DNA from: Thiomicrospira sp. XS5
Lineage (GTDB): Bacteria > Pseudomonadota > Gammaproteobacteria > Thiomicrospirales > Thiomicrospiraceae
DNA: 64,000 nt
Direction of reading: 5' to 3'
NCBI RefSeq assembly: GCF_001507555.1
Contig: NZ_LQBO01000001.1
Location: 186,001-250,000, forward strand
Every line of letters begins with the position of its first letter. Positions within the stretch are counted from its first letter, which is position 1. The notes beneath the pieces were generated by a model that worked only from the letters and a program-made list of their open reading frames with translations, was not told the DNA's origin and searched no databases. This document shows, piece by piece, positions 48,375 to 57,080 of the stretch. The translations under genes were made by a program, and so were the position numbers.

Positions 48375-49244
48375 TCAAGCCTGAGCCAAGTGCCCTTGGC
48401 GGCGCACTTTCAACGCCTGCAAGACCAAGACGGTCACCATTAACAACAGCCCGGCCATCACGGCAATCGACGCCGCAATCGAACTGTCTAACCAGACGGC
48501 CACCGCATAGCCTGCCAGCACGGAAAGCTGTGCGTAGCCCGCCGCCAACCACAACATGCCTTTTAAGGACTTGGCTAATAAATAAGCCGCACTGGCCGGA
48601 ATCACCAGCAAAGCCACCACCAAAATCGCCCCCACCGCATCAAAAGACGCCACCGTCGTCAACGACACCATCGTCATCAACAAGTAATGCCAGAACACCA
48701 CATTCACGCCCAAAGATACCGCCAGCGCCGGATGAAACGCCACCAGTTTAAAGCGTTCAAAACCGATCAGCACAATCAACAGGTTCAGTACAAACACGCC
48801 GAGAATCAACCAAAAAGCGCGCGGCCCGATGTCGGTCTCCCCCCAGATAACCGTATCAAACGGCACAAATGCGATTTCACCATAGAGCACACACTCCTGA
48901 TCCAAATCCACCTGACCCGCGTACACCGAAATCAAAATCACCCCGACGGCAAAAAACCAGGTAAAAATAATACCGATACTGGCATCGGTCTGCAGCTTAC
49001 TGACTCGGTGCAACGTATTGGATAACCAAGCGGTTAACAAACCAATGGCTGTGGCGCCAATCATCATCGCCACCACCGAACGGCTGCCGACAGCCAAGTA
49101 CGCCAATACAATGCCCAATAAGACCGAATGGCTGATCGCATCGCCTAATAAACTCATGCGACGCAATACCAGAAAAACGCCCACCATCGAACAGCTGACG
49201 GCCACCAAGCTGGCCGTCGCCAGAATCCAAACATCACCCATCAT
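48375..49244 (-). CDS. Metal ABC transporter permease (ABC-3 family)
   Basis: 289 residues with eight or nine membrane helices. Features: VAVSCSMVGVFLVLRRMSLLGDAISHSVL, typical of manganese/zinc/iron ABC-3 permeases, and GAILVVALLVIPASAAYLL. Second permease of the importer, overlapping the fused permease gene by 4 bases. Confidence 0.92.
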   Translation of the reverse strand: MMGDVWILATASLVAVSCSMVGVFLVLRRMSLLGDAISHSVLLGIVLAYLAVGSRSVVAMMIGATAIGLLTAWLSNTLHRVSKLQTDASIGIIFTWFFAVGVILISVYAGQVDLDQECVLYGEIAFVPFDTVIWGETDIGPRAFWLILGVFVLNLLIVLIGFERFKLVAFHPALAVSLGVNVVFWHYLLMTMVSLTTVASFDAVGAILVVALLVIPASAAYLLAKSLKGMLWLAAGYAQLSVLAGYAVAVWLDSSIAASIAVMAGLLLMVTVLVLQALKVRRQGHLAQA

Positions 49245-50650
49245 GACTCGGCTCCTTTCTGGTCTGACCCGACCTGCGCCGCCGGAATCCGTCGTCCATG
49301 CGGGTCTTTCAATGAACCGGTTTTCTGAACACTGTGTAACTCTCGCTCCAAAGCCTGCGTCTCCTCATCCGTCAATAAGTGCTCGATCTGCTCGGCTTGC
49401 GAATGCACCCGATCCGGCGTCAAAGCCACCTGCTCGGTCAAATAGTTCTCCCACAGGCGATGACGACGCGTCAAGGCGACCGCCCGCTCGACCCCTGTTG
49501 GTGACAGCGCCACGGCCCGCACGGTATCGGTCCCAGTCAACCAACCGTGTTTTTTCATTCGGGCCAAGGTCTCTTTCAATTCCGCCAACGGCATGGTGCG
49601 CAACGCCAAAATATCCTCTTCACCAAACGGTAAATCCAACGCCAAAGCGTTTTGGGCATGATGGCGATTGACGGGATGACGCTCATTCAATACATACAAG
49701 GTACGCAGCACATTTTCGTCACACACCTGACGGCGTAGTCGGCGCTGTTTCAACATATTGGCAATCAGGCCCCGTTGCGGCGCAAACAAAAAGGACACCG
49801 CAAACACCAACGACAACACCACCACCATCCAGGGCCCGGTCGGCATCGCCGGTGCCATATAGGAAATATTGGCACTGAACAATCCGCTGATCCCGCCGAT
49901 AAACCCGGCGGTCAACAACATCACCGACAGACTGTGCCCCCAAAAGCGAGCTGCGGCCACCGGTGTCAGCAAGACCGCCGCCATCAACACCACCCCGACA
50001 ATCTGCAAACCGATGACCACCGACATCACAATCAGCAACGCCAGCACCAGCTCATAAAACGCGATGTTCAATCCCAACGATTGGGCATAGGTTCGGTTAA
50101 AGGCAATCAAACGGAATTTTTGGAAGAAAACCGCCACGGTCAGCAACACCACCAACGCCACCGCCGACAACAGATAAATATCACTCGGCAGCATTGCCGC
50201 CGCCTGCCCAAACAGAATTTTGTCCAGGCCTGACTTGCCCGCCACTTCCATACCCTGAATGTACGACAACTCCATCAGACCCAGCGCGAAAAAAAACGAT
50301 AAGGTTATGGCCATGGCCGCATCCGGTTTGATTTTGGTGTGCTTGGGAATCCAGTCCATCAGGAACAGACCGAGAAAACTGCTGATCAAAGCACCGAAAA
50401 ACATCAACAACGGCGTATGGGCATGAAACAGAATAAAGGCCGTCATCACGCCGGGCAAAGCGGCATGTGCCAAGGCATCGCCCATCAAGGAGCGCTTGCG
50501 TAAAAAGGCAAATCCGCCAATCACCGACGCACTGATGCCCAGCAAAATCGAACCGACCATCACCCAAACGGCGTTGGCGTCTTCAAACCGCCAGAACTCC
50601 AGAAACAACGCCCAGTAATCCGGCGAATAGGCGACAAAATCACTCGTCAT
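49241..50650 (-). CDS. Metal ABC permease fused to a DtxR/MntR-like module
   Basis: 469 residues. Residues 1-300 are an ABC-3 permease (VIGGFAFLRKRSLMGDALAHAALPG; GVVLMAAVLLTPVAAARFW). After residue 300 a cytoplasmic winged-helix stretch (PLAELKETLARMKKHGWLTG, ALSPTGVERAVAL) is followed by an MntR-type metal-binding and dimerisation helix (RRHRLWENYLTEQ; VHSQAEQIEHLL; then DPHGRRIP). The His and the ExxEH cluster of the metal site are kept, while the first-helix Asp/Glu ligands look replaced. It could sense cytoplasmic metal and gate transport or act as a membrane-bound regulator. Confidence 0.9.
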   Translation of the reverse strand: MTSDFVAYSPDYWALFLEFWRFEDANAVWVMVGSILLGISASVIGGFAFLRKRSLMGDALAHAALPGVMTAFILFHAHTPLLMFFGALISSFLGLFLMDWIPKHTKIKPDAAMAITLSFFFALGLMELSYIQGMEVAGKSGLDKILFGQAAAMLPSDIYLLSAVALVVLLTVAVFFQKFRLIAFNRTYAQSLGLNIAFYELVLALLIVMSVVIGLQIVGVVLMAAVLLTPVAAARFWGHSLSVMLLTAGFIGGISGLFSANISYMAPAMPTGPWMVVVLSLVFAVSFLFAPQRGLIANMLKQRRLRRQVCDENVLRTLYVLNERHPVNRHHAQNALALDLPFGEEDILALRTMPLAELKETLARMKKHGWLTGTDTVRAVALSPTGVERAVALTRRHRLWENYLTEQVALTPDRVHSQAEQIEHLLTDEETQALERELHSVQKTGSLKDPHGRRIPAAQVGSDQKGAES

Positions 50651-51440
50651 CGTGCACCTTATCCAGGTTAGAGCGATAGAGCTTTTCGGTCATTTCGCTC
50701 AACAGCGACAGACGACCGCCATAGGTTTTATTGAGGTTTTCCGGCGTCATCACGTCTTGCACCGGCCCGGCCGCCACCAAACGTGCATTCACCAGCAACA
50801 CCCAATCGAAATAATCACCGACGGTATTCAAGTCGTGGTGCACGCAAACAATGGTTTTATTCTGGGATTTCAGTTCGTGGAACAGTTCGATAATCGCTTT
50901 TTCGGTGGTGACATCCACCCCGGCGAAAGGTTCGTCCATCAGGTACAGGCTGGCTTTTTGCGCCAAGGCGCGCGCCAGAAATACCCGCTGCTGCTGACCA
51001 CCAGACAACTGGCTGATTTGGCGGTCTTTAAAATCCAACATACTGACGCGCGCCAAGGCCTGCTCGGCAATCATCACGTCATCGCGTGACGGGCGTTGCC
51101 AGAACTTCAAATGGCCGTGCCGCCCCATCAACACCACATCCATGACATTAATCGGAAAATCCCAATCCGATTCCTCGCGCTGCGGCACATAGGCCACCGA
51201 CAACTGCTTCTGCTTCAACGGCTGTCCGAAAAAACGTACTTGTCCGCTCATCAAGGGCTCCAAGCCCATAATGCCTTTCAGCAAAGTGGACTTACCCGCT
51301 CCGTTCGGCCCGACGATGGCGATGTTCTGGCCTTCCGGAATGGCAAAGCTGACATCCGTCAACACCGGCTTATACTGATAACGCATGCTGAGTTGATTGA
51401 CGGTCAACGGCGGATTTTCAATGGTTTTCCAAGCATCCAT
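50640..51440 (-). CDS. Metal ABC transporter ATPase
   Basis: 266 residues. Walker A is IVGPNGAGKSTLLKGIMG, the Q loop is VPQREESDWDFPI, the signature is LSGGQQQRVFLARAL and Walker B is LYLMDEPFAG. It resembles MntA/SitB/ZnuC-type ATPases. It lies between the binding-protein gene (1-base gap) and the fused permease (11-base overlap). Confidence 0.94.
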   Translation of the reverse strand: MDAWKTIENPPLTVNQLSMRYQYKPVLTDVSFAIPEGQNIAIVGPNGAGKSTLLKGIMGLEPLMSGQVRFFGQPLKQKQLSVAYVPQREESDWDFPINVMDVVLMGRHGHLKFWQRPSRDDVMIAEQALARVSMLDFKDRQISQLSGGQQQRVFLARALAQKASLYLMDEPFAGVDVTTEKAIIELFHELKSQNKTIVCVHHDLNTVGDYFDWVLLVNARLVAAGPVQDVMTPENLNKTYGGRLSLLSEMTEKLYRSNLDKVHDDE

Positions 51441-51441
51441 A

Positions 51442-52335
51442 TTACTTCAAGGCCCCAACAATGGTATTCACATTATGTTTCACCATACCGATATAGGTGC
51501 CCTCCGGCGTACCGGACAAGCCCATGGCGTCGGAATAGAGTTCGCCGCCAATGGCAAGATGGCCATCGGCTTCATTCACACCCGCCACCAACGATTTCAG
51601 GAATTTTTTCGGCACACTCGATTCCACGAACACGGCTTTGATATGGCGTTCCAGAATCAAATCTTTCAGACGCTTAATATCATGCAACCCAAACTCAGTG
51701 GCGGTGCTGATCCCCTGCAGTCCTCGTACTTCCATGCCGTAGGCCCGCCCGAAATACCCGAAAGCATCGTGCGCGGTAATCAAAACGCGCTGCCCGGCCG
51801 GAATCGTCTGCACCTGGTCTTTCACCCAGGTGTTCAAATCGGCCAACTGCTGCAAATACACCTTGGCATTCTGGCGGTAAAAATCTTGATGCATTGGATC
51901 GTGCTGGATTAATTTTTCCAACACCAAACGACCGGCCTGCTCCCACAGGCCGACATCAAACCACACGTGCGGATCCGGCGCCTGTCCAAAGTGCAAAATC
52001 GCGCCCTTTGGAAATTCCGACGTCACCGCATAAACCGGTTTTTTCCGCGCCAGTTTTTCAAAGACTTCCTGCATTTTGCCTTCCAAGTGTAAACCATTGA
52101 AAAAAATCACATCGGCTCGTTGCAGTCGCCGCAAATCACCGTGGGTGGCTTTATACAAGTGCGGGTCAACCCCCGCCCCCATTAAGGCGGTCATCGTGAC
52201 TTTATCCTGTCCGATATTCGTCACCAAGTCGCCGATCATGCCGGTGGTCACCACCACATTCAAAGGCTTGGCCTGCACCTGAAACGCCATAAAACCGATG
52301 CACACCAAGATCAATCTGCTCAAATACGTCTTCAC
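51442..52335 (-). CDS. Periplasmic metal-binding protein of the Mn/Zn/Fe ABC importer
   Basis: 297 residues with a signal peptide (LSRLILVCIGFMAFQVQA). Cluster A-I metal ligands are visible: His in VDPHLYKAT, His in PDPHVWFD, Glu in FVESSVPKK and Asp in LYSDAMG. There is no His-rich loop of the kind common in ZnuA, which with the MntR-like context favours manganese (inference). First gene of the leftward operon behind a palindromic operator. Confidence 0.9.
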   Translation of the reverse strand: MKTYLSRLILVCIGFMAFQVQAKPLNVVVTTGMIGDLVTNIGQDKVTMTALMGAGVDPHLYKATHGDLRRLQRADVIFFNGLHLEGKMQEVFEKLARKKPVYAVTSEFPKGAILHFGQAPDPHVWFDVGLWEQAGRLVLEKLIQHDPMHQDFYRQNAKVYLQQLADLNTWVKDQVQTIPAGQRVLITAHDAFGYFGRAYGMEVRGLQGISTATEFGLHDIKRLKDLILERHIKAVFVESSVPKKFLKSLVAGVNEADGHLAIGGELYSDAMGLSGTPEGTYIGMVKHNVNTIVGALK

Positions 52336-52361
52336 AATATTTTTCTCATCTTATACAAAGT

Positions 52362-52375
52362 TTAGCCTAGGCTAA
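52362..52375. promoter_or_regulatory. DtxR/MntR-type operator in the metal importer leader
   Basis: A perfect 14-bp palindrome TTAGCCTAGGCTAA, 27 bases before the binding-protein start. On the minus strand a TATACT (52397 to 52392) could be the -10, placing the palindrome just after the transcription start, where a bound repressor would block transcription. The pattern resembles sites of the DtxR/MntR family. Confidence 0.7.
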
Positions 52376-52457
52376 TATTTTCAATAAACAAAGTATAGCA
52401 CAAAGAAACTTACCCACAAACCCCTTTAAACAGCTTAAAAAACCGCTGCAAAATCGG

Positions 52458-52467
52458 CCAGGCCTGG
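52458..52467. repeat. CCAGGCCTGG dispersed palindrome, intergenic
   Basis: Exact copy between the divergent metal importer and ridA. AAAAT-CGG precedes it, but the right arm is TCA-AAAG rather than T-rich. Confidence 0.9.
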
Positions 52468-52511
52468 TCAAAAGGCGTCATTTGCTCGCTCGGCACATCA
52501 TTGGAATTCTA

Positions 52512-52520
52512 TGCTAAAAT
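52512..52520 (+). promoter_or_regulatory. Extended -10 promoter of ridA
   Basis: TGCTAAAAT, 40 bases before the ridA ATG. The identical element lies before recG. Confidence 0.5.
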
Positions 52521-52559
52521 CCAAAGCCTCTATTTAATACACCGAATAACGAGGCCCCC

Positions 52560-52946
52560 ATGCGAGAAATCATTGCCACAGACAAAGCCCCACAAGCCAT
52601 CGGCACCTATTCCCAAGCCGTCAAAGCGGATAACACGGTTTACCTTTCCGGCCAAATCGCCCTGATTCCGGAAACCATGGAGTTAAAAGAAGGTGATATT
52701 TCCGAACGCATCCACCAAGTCTTCAAAAACCTGTCAGCGGTTTGCGAAGCCGCCGGTGGCAATTTGCAAGACATCGTCAAACTGAATATTTTCCTGACCG
52801 ATCTGAGCCATTTCACCACCGTCAACGAAATCATGGCGCAGTATTTTGAACAGCCTTACCCGGCCAGAGCCGCGGTTGGCGTTAAAGAACTGCCAAAAGG
52901 CACCGACGTCGAAATGGATGGCGTGATGATTCTATCCGCTTACTAA
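52560..52946 (+). CDS. ridA: RidA (YjgF) enamine/imine deaminase
   Basis: 128 residues, normal length. Features: [28 protein letters not shown], the catalytic-site Arg in [16 protein letters not shown] and the end VEMDGVMIL. It hydrolyses reactive enamines from PLP enzymes such as threonine dehydratase. In relatives it follows spoT directly; here the Cache gene and the metal importer lie between. Confidence 0.96.
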
Positions 52947-53190: not shown

Positions 53191-55026
53191 ATGAGTGAAC
53201 AACCGATTGATATTCTATGGGTTCTCATCAGCGCCGTTCTCGTCGCCATGATGCAGCCTGGCTTTACCGCCCTTGAAGCCGGCGCCACCCGAACCAAAAA
53301 CTCGATTTCAACCGCCATCAAAAATGTCAGCGACTTCCTGATCGCCTTTATGATTTTCGTCATCATCGGCGCCAGCATTATGCTCGGCAGCAGCCAAAAC
53401 GGCTGGATCGGCTGGGACAAACTGTTCTTTTACGAAGACTCTTTATCTGGCCTGGTGCTGACTTTGTTCCACGCCATGTTCGCCTCCACGGCCGTCACCA
53501 TCATTTCCGGTTCCATTGCCGAACGCACCAAATACACCTCTTACCTGATCATCGCCATCATCGTCTCCTTGTTCATTTACCCGGTTCAAGCACACTGGAT
53601 TTGGAACAGCGACGGTTGGCTCGCTCAGATGGGGTTCATCGATTTCGCCGGTTCCACCGTGGTGCACTCGGTCGGCGGTTGGGCGGCTCTGGCAGCCATT
53701 TTGATTATCGGCCCGCGGTTAGGCCGCTTTGAAAACAACGAACGTCCGTTTGAGCAGGCCAACCTCGCTTACAGTGCCCTCGGCGTCTTTTTGATTTGGT
53801 TGGGGTGGATCGGTTTCAACGGCGGCAGTGTACTGGCCTTGAATATCGAAACCGGGAAAGTTGTGCTGAACACCTTGATTGCCGGTGCGGTCGGCGGCAT
53901 TGCGGGGCTCATCGTCAGCCGCCTGATGACCGGTTACTATCAGGTCATCGACATCATCAACGGCATTCTGGCCGGACTGGTGGCCATCACCTCCTGCGCT
54001 CATCTGGCCTCGCCGTTCAGCGCCATGGTGGTCGGCGCCATCGGCTATCTGGCGTATCTAGTCGGCAAAATCCTGCTGATTCGCTGGCGGATTGACGACG
54101 CCATTGAAGCCGTTCCGGTCCATTTGTTTGCCGGCATCGCGGGCACCCTGGCCGTGGCGTTTTTGGTCGAGGAAACGTTGTTCTGGCAGCAGTTCAAAAC
54201 CCAAGCCACCGGCGTCTTTTTCGTGGGCCTCCTGACCTTCACGGTCACCTACATCATGCTGAAAATCATCAACCGTTTTTACGCCTTGCGCGTCTCCGAA
54301 GCCAAAGAGATTCTCGGCTTGAACATCAGTGAACACCAGGCCTCCACGTCCATGTTTGACTTAGCGCGCGCCATGAACGCTCAGGCCCAAGACCAGGATT
54401 TCAGCAAAAAAATCATGGTGGAACCTTATTCCGACGCCTCCCTGATTGCCACTTATTACAACCATGTGACCCAGGCCTTCAATCAATTGAACGATGAAAA
54501 AGAAACGCTGATTGAAGAGTCCTATCACATGGCCAATTACGACCAGTTAACCGGATTGGCGAAACGCCGCCTGTTGGTGAACGAACTGTCACGCTCCATT
54601 CTACGGCTGGATCGCCAGGACCAGACCAATGCGATTCTGTTCATCGATCTGGACGGTTTCAAAGCCATCAATGACCAGTACGGTCATAATGCCGGCGACA
54701 TCCTGCTGAAGGAAGCCGCCAACCGCATCCAAACCATTATCCGCAAAACCGATTTGGCCGCGCGTTTCGGCGGTGACGAATTTGTGATTCTGCTGGAAAA
54801 TATTCAGAATGAAAGCTTCGCCGCCCAAGTTGCGGACAAGATCATTGACTCCATCAAACAGCCGATTCAACTGCCAAACGACGTCACCGGCTGTGTGAAT
54901 GCCTCCATTGGCCTCAAGGTGTTTGACGGCGGTTCGAAAAAGAACGTCGACGACATTTTGAACATGGCCGACAAAGCCATGTACGAAGCGAAACGCCGCG
55001 GCAAAGGACAGTGGGTGATTGCTTAA
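53191..55026 (+). CDS. Ammonium transporter fused to a GGDEF diguanylate cyclase
   Basis: 611 residues. Residues 1-400 are an Amt/Rh channel of about 11 helices (QPGFTALEAGATRTKNS; STVVHSVGGWAAL and VHLFAGIAGTLAV carry the two pore His). After a linker of about 60 residues a complete GGDEF domain follows (AARFGGDEFVILLEN) with an RKTD inhibition site five residues upstream. Ammonium binding or flux could control c-di-GMP synthesis directly. Confidence 0.93.
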   Translation: MSEQPIDILWVLISAVLVAMMQPGFTALEAGATRTKNSISTAIKNVSDFLIAFMIFVIIGASIMLGSSQNGWIGWDKLFFYEDSLSGLVLTLFHAMFASTAVTIISGSIAERTKYTSYLIIAIIVSLFIYPVQAHWIWNSDGWLAQMGFIDFAGSTVVHSVGGWAALAAILIIGPRLGRFENNERPFEQANLAYSALGVFLIWLGWIGFNGGSVLALNIETGKVVLNTLIAGAVGGIAGLIVSRLMTGYYQVIDIINGILAGLVAITSCAHLASPFSAMVVGAIGYLAYLVGKILLIRWRIDDAIEAVPVHLFAGIAGTLAVAFLVEETLFWQQFKTQATGVFFVGLLTFTVTYIMLKIINRFYALRVSEAKEILGLNISEHQASTSMFDLARAMNAQAQDQDFSKKIMVEPYSDASLIATYYNHVTQAFNQLNDEKETLIEESYHMANYDQLTGLAKRRLLVNELSRSILRLDRQDQTNAILFIDLDGFKAINDQYGHNAGDILLKEAANRIQTIIRKTDLAARFGGDEFVILLENIQNESFAAQVADKIIDSIKQPIQLPNDVTGCVNASIGLKVFDGGSKKNVDDILNMADKAMYEAKRRGKGQWVIA

Positions 55027-55661: not shown

Positions 55662-55748
55662 GGCTTTCCTCCGTTTTTCATCATCATACGCGGCTGACCA
55701 CGTCGGATTTTGAAAAAAATAAGGTTTACGCCCGACGTCACCAACCCA

Positions 55749-55758
55749 CCAGGCCTGG
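55749..55758. repeat. CCAGGCCTGG dispersed palindrome, divergent intergenic
   Basis: Exact copy, extended to a 16-bp perfect palindrome (CCACCAGG and its complement, 55746-55761) followed by TTTT. It lies upstream of both flanking genes, so a terminator role for them is unlikely. Confidence 0.92.
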
Positions 55759-55826
55759 TGGTTTTCCGCTTTCCGATGACGCCATCGAACCCACTGACAA
55801 ATAACGCTCAACAGGACTTGAATTTT

Positions 55827-55847
55827 ATATGTTATGTTATAACATAT
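55827..55847. promoter_or_regulatory. Zur-box-like operator of the zinc-starvation operon
   Basis: Inverted repeat ATATGTTAT / ATAACATAT around GTT, 30 bases before the GTPase start. Repeats of the TGTTATA/TATAACA type are typical gammaproteobacterial Zur sites, and zur is the second gene downstream. Confidence 0.78.
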
Positions 55848-55877
55848 CATTATTCATCCATTCGTGAGGACTCCGCC

Positions 55878-57080
55878 ATGAAACAACTTCCCGTCACCGT
55901 GCTGTCCGGTTTTCTCGGCGCCGGTAAAACCACCCTGCTCAATCACATTCTGAACAACCGCCAGAATTTACGCGTCGCCGTCATCGTCAACGACATGAGC
56001 GAAATCAACATCGACGCCAGTTTGGTGGAAGGCGAAGTCAGTCTGAACCGTTCCGAAGAAAAAATGGTGGAAATGTCCAACGGCTGCATTTGCTGCACCT
56101 TACGCGAGGATTTACTTCTGGAGGTGTCCGCTCTGGCAAAGGCCGGTAAATTCGATTATCTGGTCATCGAATCCACCGGCATCTCCGAACCGCTGCCAGT
56201 TGCCGAAACCTTCACCTTCGAAGACGAAAACGGCCTCTCCCTGTCAGACGTCGCGCGGCTCGACACCATGGTCACGGTGGTGGACGGCGGCAATTTCCTC
56301 ACCGATTTCCGTCAGGCCAAATCCCTGCAAGAAGCCGGGGAAAGCCTCGGGGATGAAGACGAACGCAGCGTTGCCGACCTTCTCATTGATCAGGTCGAAT
56401 TCGCCGACGTGCTGCTCATCAGCAAAACCGATTTAATGACACACGACCAAATCGAAGAACTGCGCGCCATTTTGCATTCCCTGAACCCGCAAGCCGACAT
56501 CCACACCTTGCAACACGGAAAGATTCCGCTCGAAACGGTGCTCAACACCCAAAAATTCAATTTCGAAAAGGCCCAACAAGCGCCGGGCTGGTTGCAGGAA
56601 ATGCGCGGCGAACACGTGCCGGAAACCGAAGAATACGGCATCGGCAGTTTTACCTTCACCGCCCGCAAACCGTTTCACCCGGTCAAGTTCCACTGTTTTC
56701 TGACCCAGCCTTGGCCAACGGGCAAACTCATTCGTTCCAAAGGGTATTTCTGGCTCGCCAGCCAACCGCAAATGGCCGGCATCTGGAGTCAGGCCGGAGG
56801 CATTGCCCATCACCACTGGGCCGGCATGTTCTGGAAAGCCGTGCCGGAAGAACGCTGGCCGGACGATGCAGCATCGCGTGACTTCATCCGCACCAAATGG
56901 GTGGAACCTTTCGGCGACATGCGACAGGAATTGGTGTTCATCGGACAAGGTTTAGATGAACACGCCACTCGAAAACAGTTAGAATCCTGTTTATTGACCG
57001 ATGAAGAACTTTACGCCGGTGTGACCTATTGGATGCAAATGGACGACCCGTTTGCCGACCCCACCGCACCGACTGCCTGA
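55878..57080 (+). CDS. COG0523/CobW-family GTPase, Zur-linked zinc metallochaperone
   Basis: 400 residues from the ATG at 55878 (GAGGA upstream). The GTPase domain has VLSGFLGAGKTTLLNHIL, the metal motif NGCICCTLREDL (CxCC), ESTGISEP and SKTDL; the CobW C-terminal domain follows. Zur-controlled members (ZigA, ZagA, ZNG1-like) deliver zinc to essential enzymes in starvation. First gene of the operon, directly after the Zur-box-like repeat. Confidence 0.9.
   Translation: MKQLPVTVLSGFLGAGKTTLLNHILNNRQNLRVAVIVNDMSEINIDASLVEGEVSLNRSEEKMVEMSNGCICCTLREDLLLEVSALAKAGKFDYLVIESTGISEPLPVAETFTFEDENGLSLSDVARLDTMVTVVDGGNFLTDFRQAKSLQEAGESLGDEDERSVADLLIDQVEFADVLLISKTDLMTHDQIEELRAILHSLNPQADIHTLQHGKIPLETVLNTQKFNFEKAQQAPGWLQEMRGEHVPETEEYGIGSFTFTARKPFHPVKFHCFLTQPWPTGKLIRSKGYFWLASQPQMAGIWSQAGGIAHHHWAGMFWKAVPEERWPDDAASRDFIRTKWVEPFGDMRQELVFIGQGLDEHATRKQLESCLLTDEELYAGVTYWMQMDDPFADPTAPTA

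Follow-up and report, generated by a model that had tools for sequence, protein, structure and literature searches.

The window analysed here, a 64,000-nucleotide stretch of the genome of Thiomicrospira sp. XS5 (contig NZ_LQBO01000001.1, positions 186,001 to 250,000), contained an operon for an ATP-binding cassette (ABC) metal importer whose first permease is fused to a C-terminal DtxR-type sensor module. The operon probably encodes an MntR-repressed importer of the TroABCD/PsaBCA kind, in which a stand-alone MntR controls transcription and the module on the first permease, a member of the lineage of chlamydial YtgCR, acts as a metal valve. The transcriptional half of this reading, in which MntR would shut the operon, is well supported by comparison of related genomes; for the transport half, we infer that the module binds metal and acts on transport, slowing or closing the importer.

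Four genes on the minus strand make up the operon, in the order A (periplasmic metal-binding protein of the ZnuA/TroA type), B (importer ABC ATPase), C (permease-sensor fusion of 469 aa) and D (second, unfused permease). Gene A (51442-52335) starts with GTG and matched PF01297 with 253.6 bits. Gene B (50640-51440; PF00005, 110.2 bits) overlaps gene C (49241-50650) by 11 bases, and gene C overlaps gene D (48375-49244; PF00950, 160.4 bits) by 4 bases. With its PF00950 permeases, PF01297 protein and ABC ATPase, the operon belongs to the ABC-3 importers of the PsaBCA/TroABCD kind.

Protein C is a YtgCR-type fusion, that is, an ABC-3 permease with a C-terminal DtxR-type module encoded in an ABCD operon. 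The permease part (residues 1-295; 49766-50650) matched PF00950 over residues 28-289 with 194.6 bits. The metal-binding and dimerisation part (residues 384-441; 49328-49501) falls within a match to the Fe_dep_repr_C family PF02742 (residues 384-456, 58.8 bits against a cut-off of 27), which assigns the module to the DtxR/MntR family. The DtxR DNA-binding family PF01325 gave no call in protein C even at an E-value of 10; a winged-helix fold (residues 335-383; 49502-49648) was nonetheless present in the structural model. In this model, which was built from 38 sequences and had a mean predicted local distance difference test (pLDDT) score of 91.2 and a predicted template modelling (pTM) score of 0.84, residues 12-310 resembled PsaC of the manganese importer PsaBC (7kyo, 7kyp; Z 34.6 over 283 residues at 2.8 Å for 7kyp). 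The PsaC chain (290 residues) ends where the sensor module begins. Residues 306-461 matched residues 3-139 of DtxR (Z 17.4, 136 residues, 2.0 Å), so that a complete two-domain DtxR fold is predicted. The original prediction, which had described a permease with a C-terminal winged helix and an MntR-type metal-binding helix, was thus correct on the architecture. The FeoA-like third domain (PF04023), which the stand-alone protein of the same genome has, is missing from the module. A continuous 30-residue helix (residues 295-324; 49679-49768) was predicted to link the permease to module helix 1, with block pLDDT values of 84-96 and the inter-domain placement error unreported; the joint in the model is a helix, not a loop.

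Residues H397, E401, H416, E420, E423 and H424 correspond, at a constant offset of 318, to DtxR H79, E83, H98, C102, E105 and H106, and N313 of the joining helix stands in the alignment column of DtxR M10. The DtxR M10 position corresponds to D8 of MntR, and the equivalence of columns derives from the alignment and the fold-match ranges. Altered first-helix ligands together with a retained HxxxE and ExxEH had been suspected from the start, and the alignments agreed, with N313 at the first-helix position and H397xxxE401 and E420xxE423H424 kept. In our family sample (62 genomes, of which 59 had a PF02742 match and 37 the fusion), the six ligand columns of helices 4-5 were invariant in all 37 fused proteins. 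The M10 column held N in 37 of 37 fused proteins and D in all 38 stand-alone rows (from 36 genomes), and the same stand-alone rows all had D in the H98 column. Across phyla, the H79, E83, E105 and H106 columns were kept in 58 of 58 fused-C rows (38 plus 20 chlamydial), and the M10 column was N or H in 57 of them.

A perfect palindrome of DtxR/MntR character, also claimed by the original prediction, was confirmed in the operon leader. This 14-bp element, TTAGCCTAGGCTAA (52362-52375), is a predicted MntR operator, lies 26 bases upstream of the GTG of gene A and is the sole exact copy in the window, where three matches with up to three mismatches were found against 0.81 expected. It is also the only match to TTAGYCNNGRCTAA in the genome; a reversed control pattern gave three genome matches, so that the genome-wide count alone says little. 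Comparison of family leaders was made with 37 sequences, from 35 of the 37 fused operons (the other two, L063 and L070, having no gene A on the contig) and two unfused ones, one 60-base fused leader at a contig end being set aside. TTAGN6CTAA was found in 33 of the 36 usable leaders (dinucleotide shuffling of all 37 leaders would give 0.46) and the strict form TTAGYCNNGRCTAA in 25 of the 36 (0.005 expected). Among 29 family loci around a TTAGYCNNGRCTAA match, the site preceded gene A in 12, an mntH-like gene in six and an outer-membrane-type gene alone in two. The mntH-like genes (G007, G008, G012, G013, G014 and G018) were recognised as Nramp by Pfam in three cases and by the start of the sequence in three, and in G018 the site lies between divergent mntR and mntH. 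Because the operator is shared with mntH and the repressor is of the MntR type, the transported metal is most likely manganese, perhaps iron. The best NCBIfam match of gene B was the manganese/iron ABC ATPase PRK15056, with a score under its cut-off, and the equivalogs AztC (zinc) and MntC (manganese) were both under their cut-offs for the binding protein. No sigma-70-type promoter reached the threshold in a scan of 52300-52600, where 0.6 would be expected by chance.

A check for a separate mntR had been proposed, and a full-length MntR-type protein was found. It is the only further PF02742 protein of the genome (218 aa; G000:C1:1376865-1377518) and has PF01325 (58.3 bits), PF02742 and FeoA domains, so the fused module is not the only DtxR-type regulator of the cell. 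In this respect the window genome, with its stand-alone MntR and operator, differs from the Chlamydiota, in which most of the genomes searched had no other DtxR-type protein. Within the family, a stand-alone protein was found beside the fusion in 34 of 37 fusion genomes, and in seven of 37 fused operons mntR directly follows gene D as a fifth gene. The latter arrangement resembles TroABCD-TroR of Treponema denticola, which has a DtxR-like regulator as fifth gene and differs from the window in consisting of five separate genes, no fusion being named in the opening of the abstract (PMC2628430).

The occurrence of the site followed that of the stand-alone protein. For the 34 fused operons with a readable leader, TTAGN6CTAA was present in 31 of 31 with a stand-alone protein and in none of three without (one-sided Fisher test, 1.7e-4, kinship ignored). 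In the three site-less genomes (G006, G020 and G038), no stand-alone protein was found with PF02742, with PF01325 (E 1e-5) or in a search with the stand-alone protein itself; the last search did hit G006 (E 0.08) and G038 (E 0.19), but both hits are very weak and run across a stop codon, and they were not counted. All six ligands of the fused module are kept in these three genomes. Conversely, G010 and G011, the only fusion-less family operons read, have the site and a stand-alone protein together with an unfused permease (317 and 316 aa) that ends shortly after FAPYQGW. In a further genome, G035 (82% complete), the site likewise lies in front of an A gene, and the scan for the fusion gave no match. 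Outside the family, the fusion was detected (E 1e-5) in four of 143 gammaproteobacterial genomes, one per genus (G000, G165, G175 and G202, the first being the window genome). G175 has stand-alone protein, site and fusion, and G165 has the fusion with neither a site nor a stand-alone protein found (PF01325, E 1e-5). Since the site goes with the stand-alone protein and dissociates from the fusion both ways, we infer that TTAGCCTAGGCTAA is read by the stand-alone MntR. This dissociation is also the reason why an operator role of the palindrome for the fused module was rejected as the best explanation.

The DNA-reading part of the fused modules has drifted. Mean pairwise identity of the recognition helix, which is residues 355-367 in protein C, was 0.40 in the 37 fused proteins versus 0.83 in the 38 stand-alone rows, and that of the wing was 0.34 versus 0.62. 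The corresponding values for the metal helices were 0.71 versus 0.76 (helix 4) and 0.70 versus 0.85 (helix 5). The ratio of non-synonymous to synonymous differences (pN/pS), pooled over 34 overlapping pairs, was lowest in the transmembrane part (0.087), slightly higher in the metal part (0.106) and higher still in the helix-turn-helix (HTH; 0.204) and the wing (0.339). The contrast between HTH and metal part was greatest in L072, L074 and L075 (HTH pN 0.36-0.37, metal part 0.02-0.04), and the very close pair L065/L067 gave 0.028 versus 0.007; all five are operons with mntR as fifth gene. In addition, five of 22 chlamydial rows (L134, L155, L175, L176 and L182) keep the metal core but lack 12-20 of the 28 columns that cover HTH helices 2-3. 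The model of L134 (mean pLDDT 90.6) predicts one short helix in place of HTH helices 2-3. The absence of much of HTH helices 2-3 from these five Chlamydiota modules is hard to reconcile with a general DNA-binding role of the module in that phylum. Two open reading frames (ORFs) that matched the stand-alone reference, L124:2159-3184(+) of Ignavibacterium (341 aa) and L137:4905-5966(+) of a Verrucomicrobia metagenome-assembled genome (MAG; 353 aa), also combine a good metal half with a weak HTH half, and may be cases in which a DtxR module with a degenerate HTH serves another purpose.

A scan of titled genomes detected 80 loci, fused and stand-alone, in Pseudomonadota, Bacteroidota, Planctomycetota, Chlorobiota, Chlamydiota, Armatimonadota and others. 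Of 17 fused loci in Bacteroidota, 15 have mntR ahead of gene A and two are truncated at a contig edge. In Chlamydiota, a PF02742 match within an open frame of fusion length was found in 48 of 50 genomes, and a second, shorter one in three. An unrooted tree of 79 hand-picked rows (45 fused-C modules, seven fused-D modules and 27 stand-alone proteins, two of the latter identical), in which some of the retained columns cover the end of the permease, a part absent from stand-alone proteins, placed the 45 fused-C modules, including chlamydial ones, on one side of a branch supported at 96/87. The 27 stand-alone proteins were on one side of a branch at 100/99, and the seven planctomycete fused-D modules formed a third set (100/93). 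The window module thus groups with the chlamydial permease fusions. Recent capture of a local MntR was considered as the origin of the fusion and rejected, as fused-C modules and stand-alone proteins form separate sets in the tree. Nine planctomycete loci (L118, L123, L128, L130, L135, L139, L143, L144 and L145) carry a module on protein D as well; the first-helix ligand is D in all nine of these modules, seven of which are in the tree.

For the fused module, two options had been left by the original prediction, a membrane-tethered repressor reading this operator and a metal valve, and it was the second that gained support. As a tethered repressor, or one released by cleavage as described for Chlamydia YtgCR, the metal-loaded module would bind the palindrome and repress its own operon. 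Chlamydia YtgCR (CT069/CTL0325; ytgABCD) does share the architecture of protein C: an ABC-3 permease, encoded in an operon for a metal importer, that is extended at its C-terminus by a DtxR-type module. The chlamydial modules, which in our comparison were ones other than that of C. trachomatis itself, lie on the same side of the supported branch as the window module. The predicted two-domain DtxR fold is complete, the site lies in the leader of the operon itself, and both repression by YtgR and its cleavage are reported in the chlamydial studies cited below. We nevertheless consider this explanation unlikely here, because a separate MntR is present, the operator goes with MntR, and the recognition helix is not conserved where the site is. 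The three family leaders from genomes in which no stand-alone protein was found are all without the site, as is G165. Moreover, the site also occurs with unfused permeases, a stand-alone protein accompanies the fusion in nearly all family fusion genomes, and the joint is modelled as a helix rather than a loop. The window's family differs from YtgCR in that either the operator or the fusion can be lost without the other.

The valve half of our reading is drawn from a metal core under near-transmembrane constraint, a helical joint and the drift of the DNA-reading part, and from the persistence of the module in genomes that lack both site and repressor. In metal-replete cells, the stand-alone MntR would bind TTAGCCTAGGCTAA and transcription of the operon would be off, and the module would bind metal at its conserved sites, whereupon the importer would be slowed or closed by feedback at the protein level, as in trans-inhibition. 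The joining helix would connect the module to the cytoplasmic end of the permease. In metal-poor cells, both the repression by MntR and the hold of the module on the importer would be released.

The proposed working is similar to that of the trans-inhibited ABC importers MetNI (with a C2 domain) and ModABC, in which transport is stopped when a cytoplasmic accessory domain binds the substrate, as described in passages of PMC10710835; the trans-inhibited importers named in these passages carry methionine and molybdate/tungstate. The importer of the window would work like these systems and is not a member of their group. Their regulatory domain is on the ATPase subunit and has another fold, whereas that of the window is on the permease and derived from a repressor. 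In the ATPase encoded by gene B (266 aa), no extra regulatory domain scored above the Pfam cut-off among the best 25 of 30 rows.

Modules of the DtxR type dimerise, which lends some support to a role in assembly, stability or metal hand-over, in which the module would pair transporters, protect the permease or pass incoming metal on. The nine planctomycete loci with a module on the second permease too are in keeping with such a role, as their subunits could pair. An assembly domain alone would not need the ligand set of helices 4-5, which is complete in all 37 fused proteins of the family; hand-over would explain the ligands too. On balance we give this alternative a low probability. Still less likely, and in our judgement a distant prospect, is a pairing of the module with the stand-alone MntR that would hold MntR at the membrane and let the state of transport feed transcription. 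Both proteins have the same family of dimerisation domain, and mntR is encoded within the fused operon in seven of 37 family cases and ahead of gene A in Bacteroidota. Such a pairing is opposed by the persistence of the fusion in G006, G020, G038 and G165, where no stand-alone match was found (PF01325, E 1e-5), and by the separation of modules and stand-alone proteins in the tree.

Several observations weigh against the combination of MntR control and metal valve. YtgR of C. trachomatis is described as a cleaved, iron-dependent repressor of its own operon in PMC5599777, PMC6504234 and PMC7755916, the last of which treats the share of the YtgC part in import as unclear. The chlamydial module L178 likewise gave no PF01325 call, so an absent call need not mean an absence of DNA binding. 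The HTH of the fused modules is still partly constrained (pN/pS 0.20) and its fold is kept. Over the 62 family genomes, the reversed control pattern was nearly as frequent as the motif (about 68 versus 80 matches), so that it is the place of the site, not its count, that is informative; nine of the 29 motif loci had no adjacent metal gene, five of these with the site inside a large ORF. The site-less family genomes number only three, one of which (G038) is a MAG of 93% completeness, and in another (G020) two ORFs stand in place of gene A and the DPHG tail is lost, so its operon may be decaying. In G202, the stand-alone gene lies about 1 kb from the operon and no site was found before gene A, and in L113, L122 and L151, which belong to groups other than Bacteroidota, the stand-alone gene is ahead of gene A with no TTAGN6CTAA in the searched stretch. 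TTAGN6CTAA did precede mntR in four of four Bacteroidota loci checked (L107, L110, L111 and L115); for other phyla, the search for the operator took in 17 selected loci, and the evidence from it is weak. As for the ligands, fused-C rows across phyla vary at the H98 column (H in 49, D in 9) and the C102 column (E in 42, D in 16; n=58), and N at M10 was also seen in two of eight stand-alone rows of the cross-phylum alignment, so that N alone does not mark a lost repressor function.

An origin of the system may be sketched tentatively, at slightly less than an even chance. An importer would have captured a DtxR-type factor, perhaps once and long ago, and with loss of the DNA-reading role the module would have become a metal valve in a lineage now spread over many phyla, including Chlamydiota. 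The valve would then possibly be ancestral, YtgR repression being either a special case or an additional function, and the module pair of planctomycetes could sense across the twofold axis of the transporter. No account of a permease-DtxR fusion outside Chlamydia was found in the open-licence literature searched, which was represented partly by titles and the beginnings of abstracts, and on MntR in these genera nothing came up there beyond listed entries.

How ABC importers of manganese, iron and zinc are stopped at the protein level is, to our knowledge, an open question. Should the module prove to be a valve, this would be a case of a repressor fold converted to the regulation of transport, and the question would arise of what chlamydial YtgR does besides repression. 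Among the free-living relatives, several combinations of operator, repressor and fusion are found, which makes them a clean system for testing.

An outer-membrane-type protein is encoded beside the MntR-type site in five family loci (L190:713-1474(-), L203:659-1477(-), L202, L206 and L208). It was assigned to PF13557 (Phenol_MetA_deg) in L190 and L203 and recognised by a similar sequence start in the other three, and its gene lies opposite gene A in L203, L206 and L208. The protein may form a metal channel in the outer membrane and be part of the MntR regulon.

In the window itself, the metal operon is adjoined by a gene on the plus strand (53191-55026) encoding an ammonium transporter (PF00909, residues 9-385) fused to a GGDEF diguanylate cyclase (PF00990, residues 448-606), a second fusion of transporter and signalling domain. 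Further, a CobW-type GTPase with a CobW_C domain, a possible metal chaperone, is encoded nearby on the plus strand (55710-57080).

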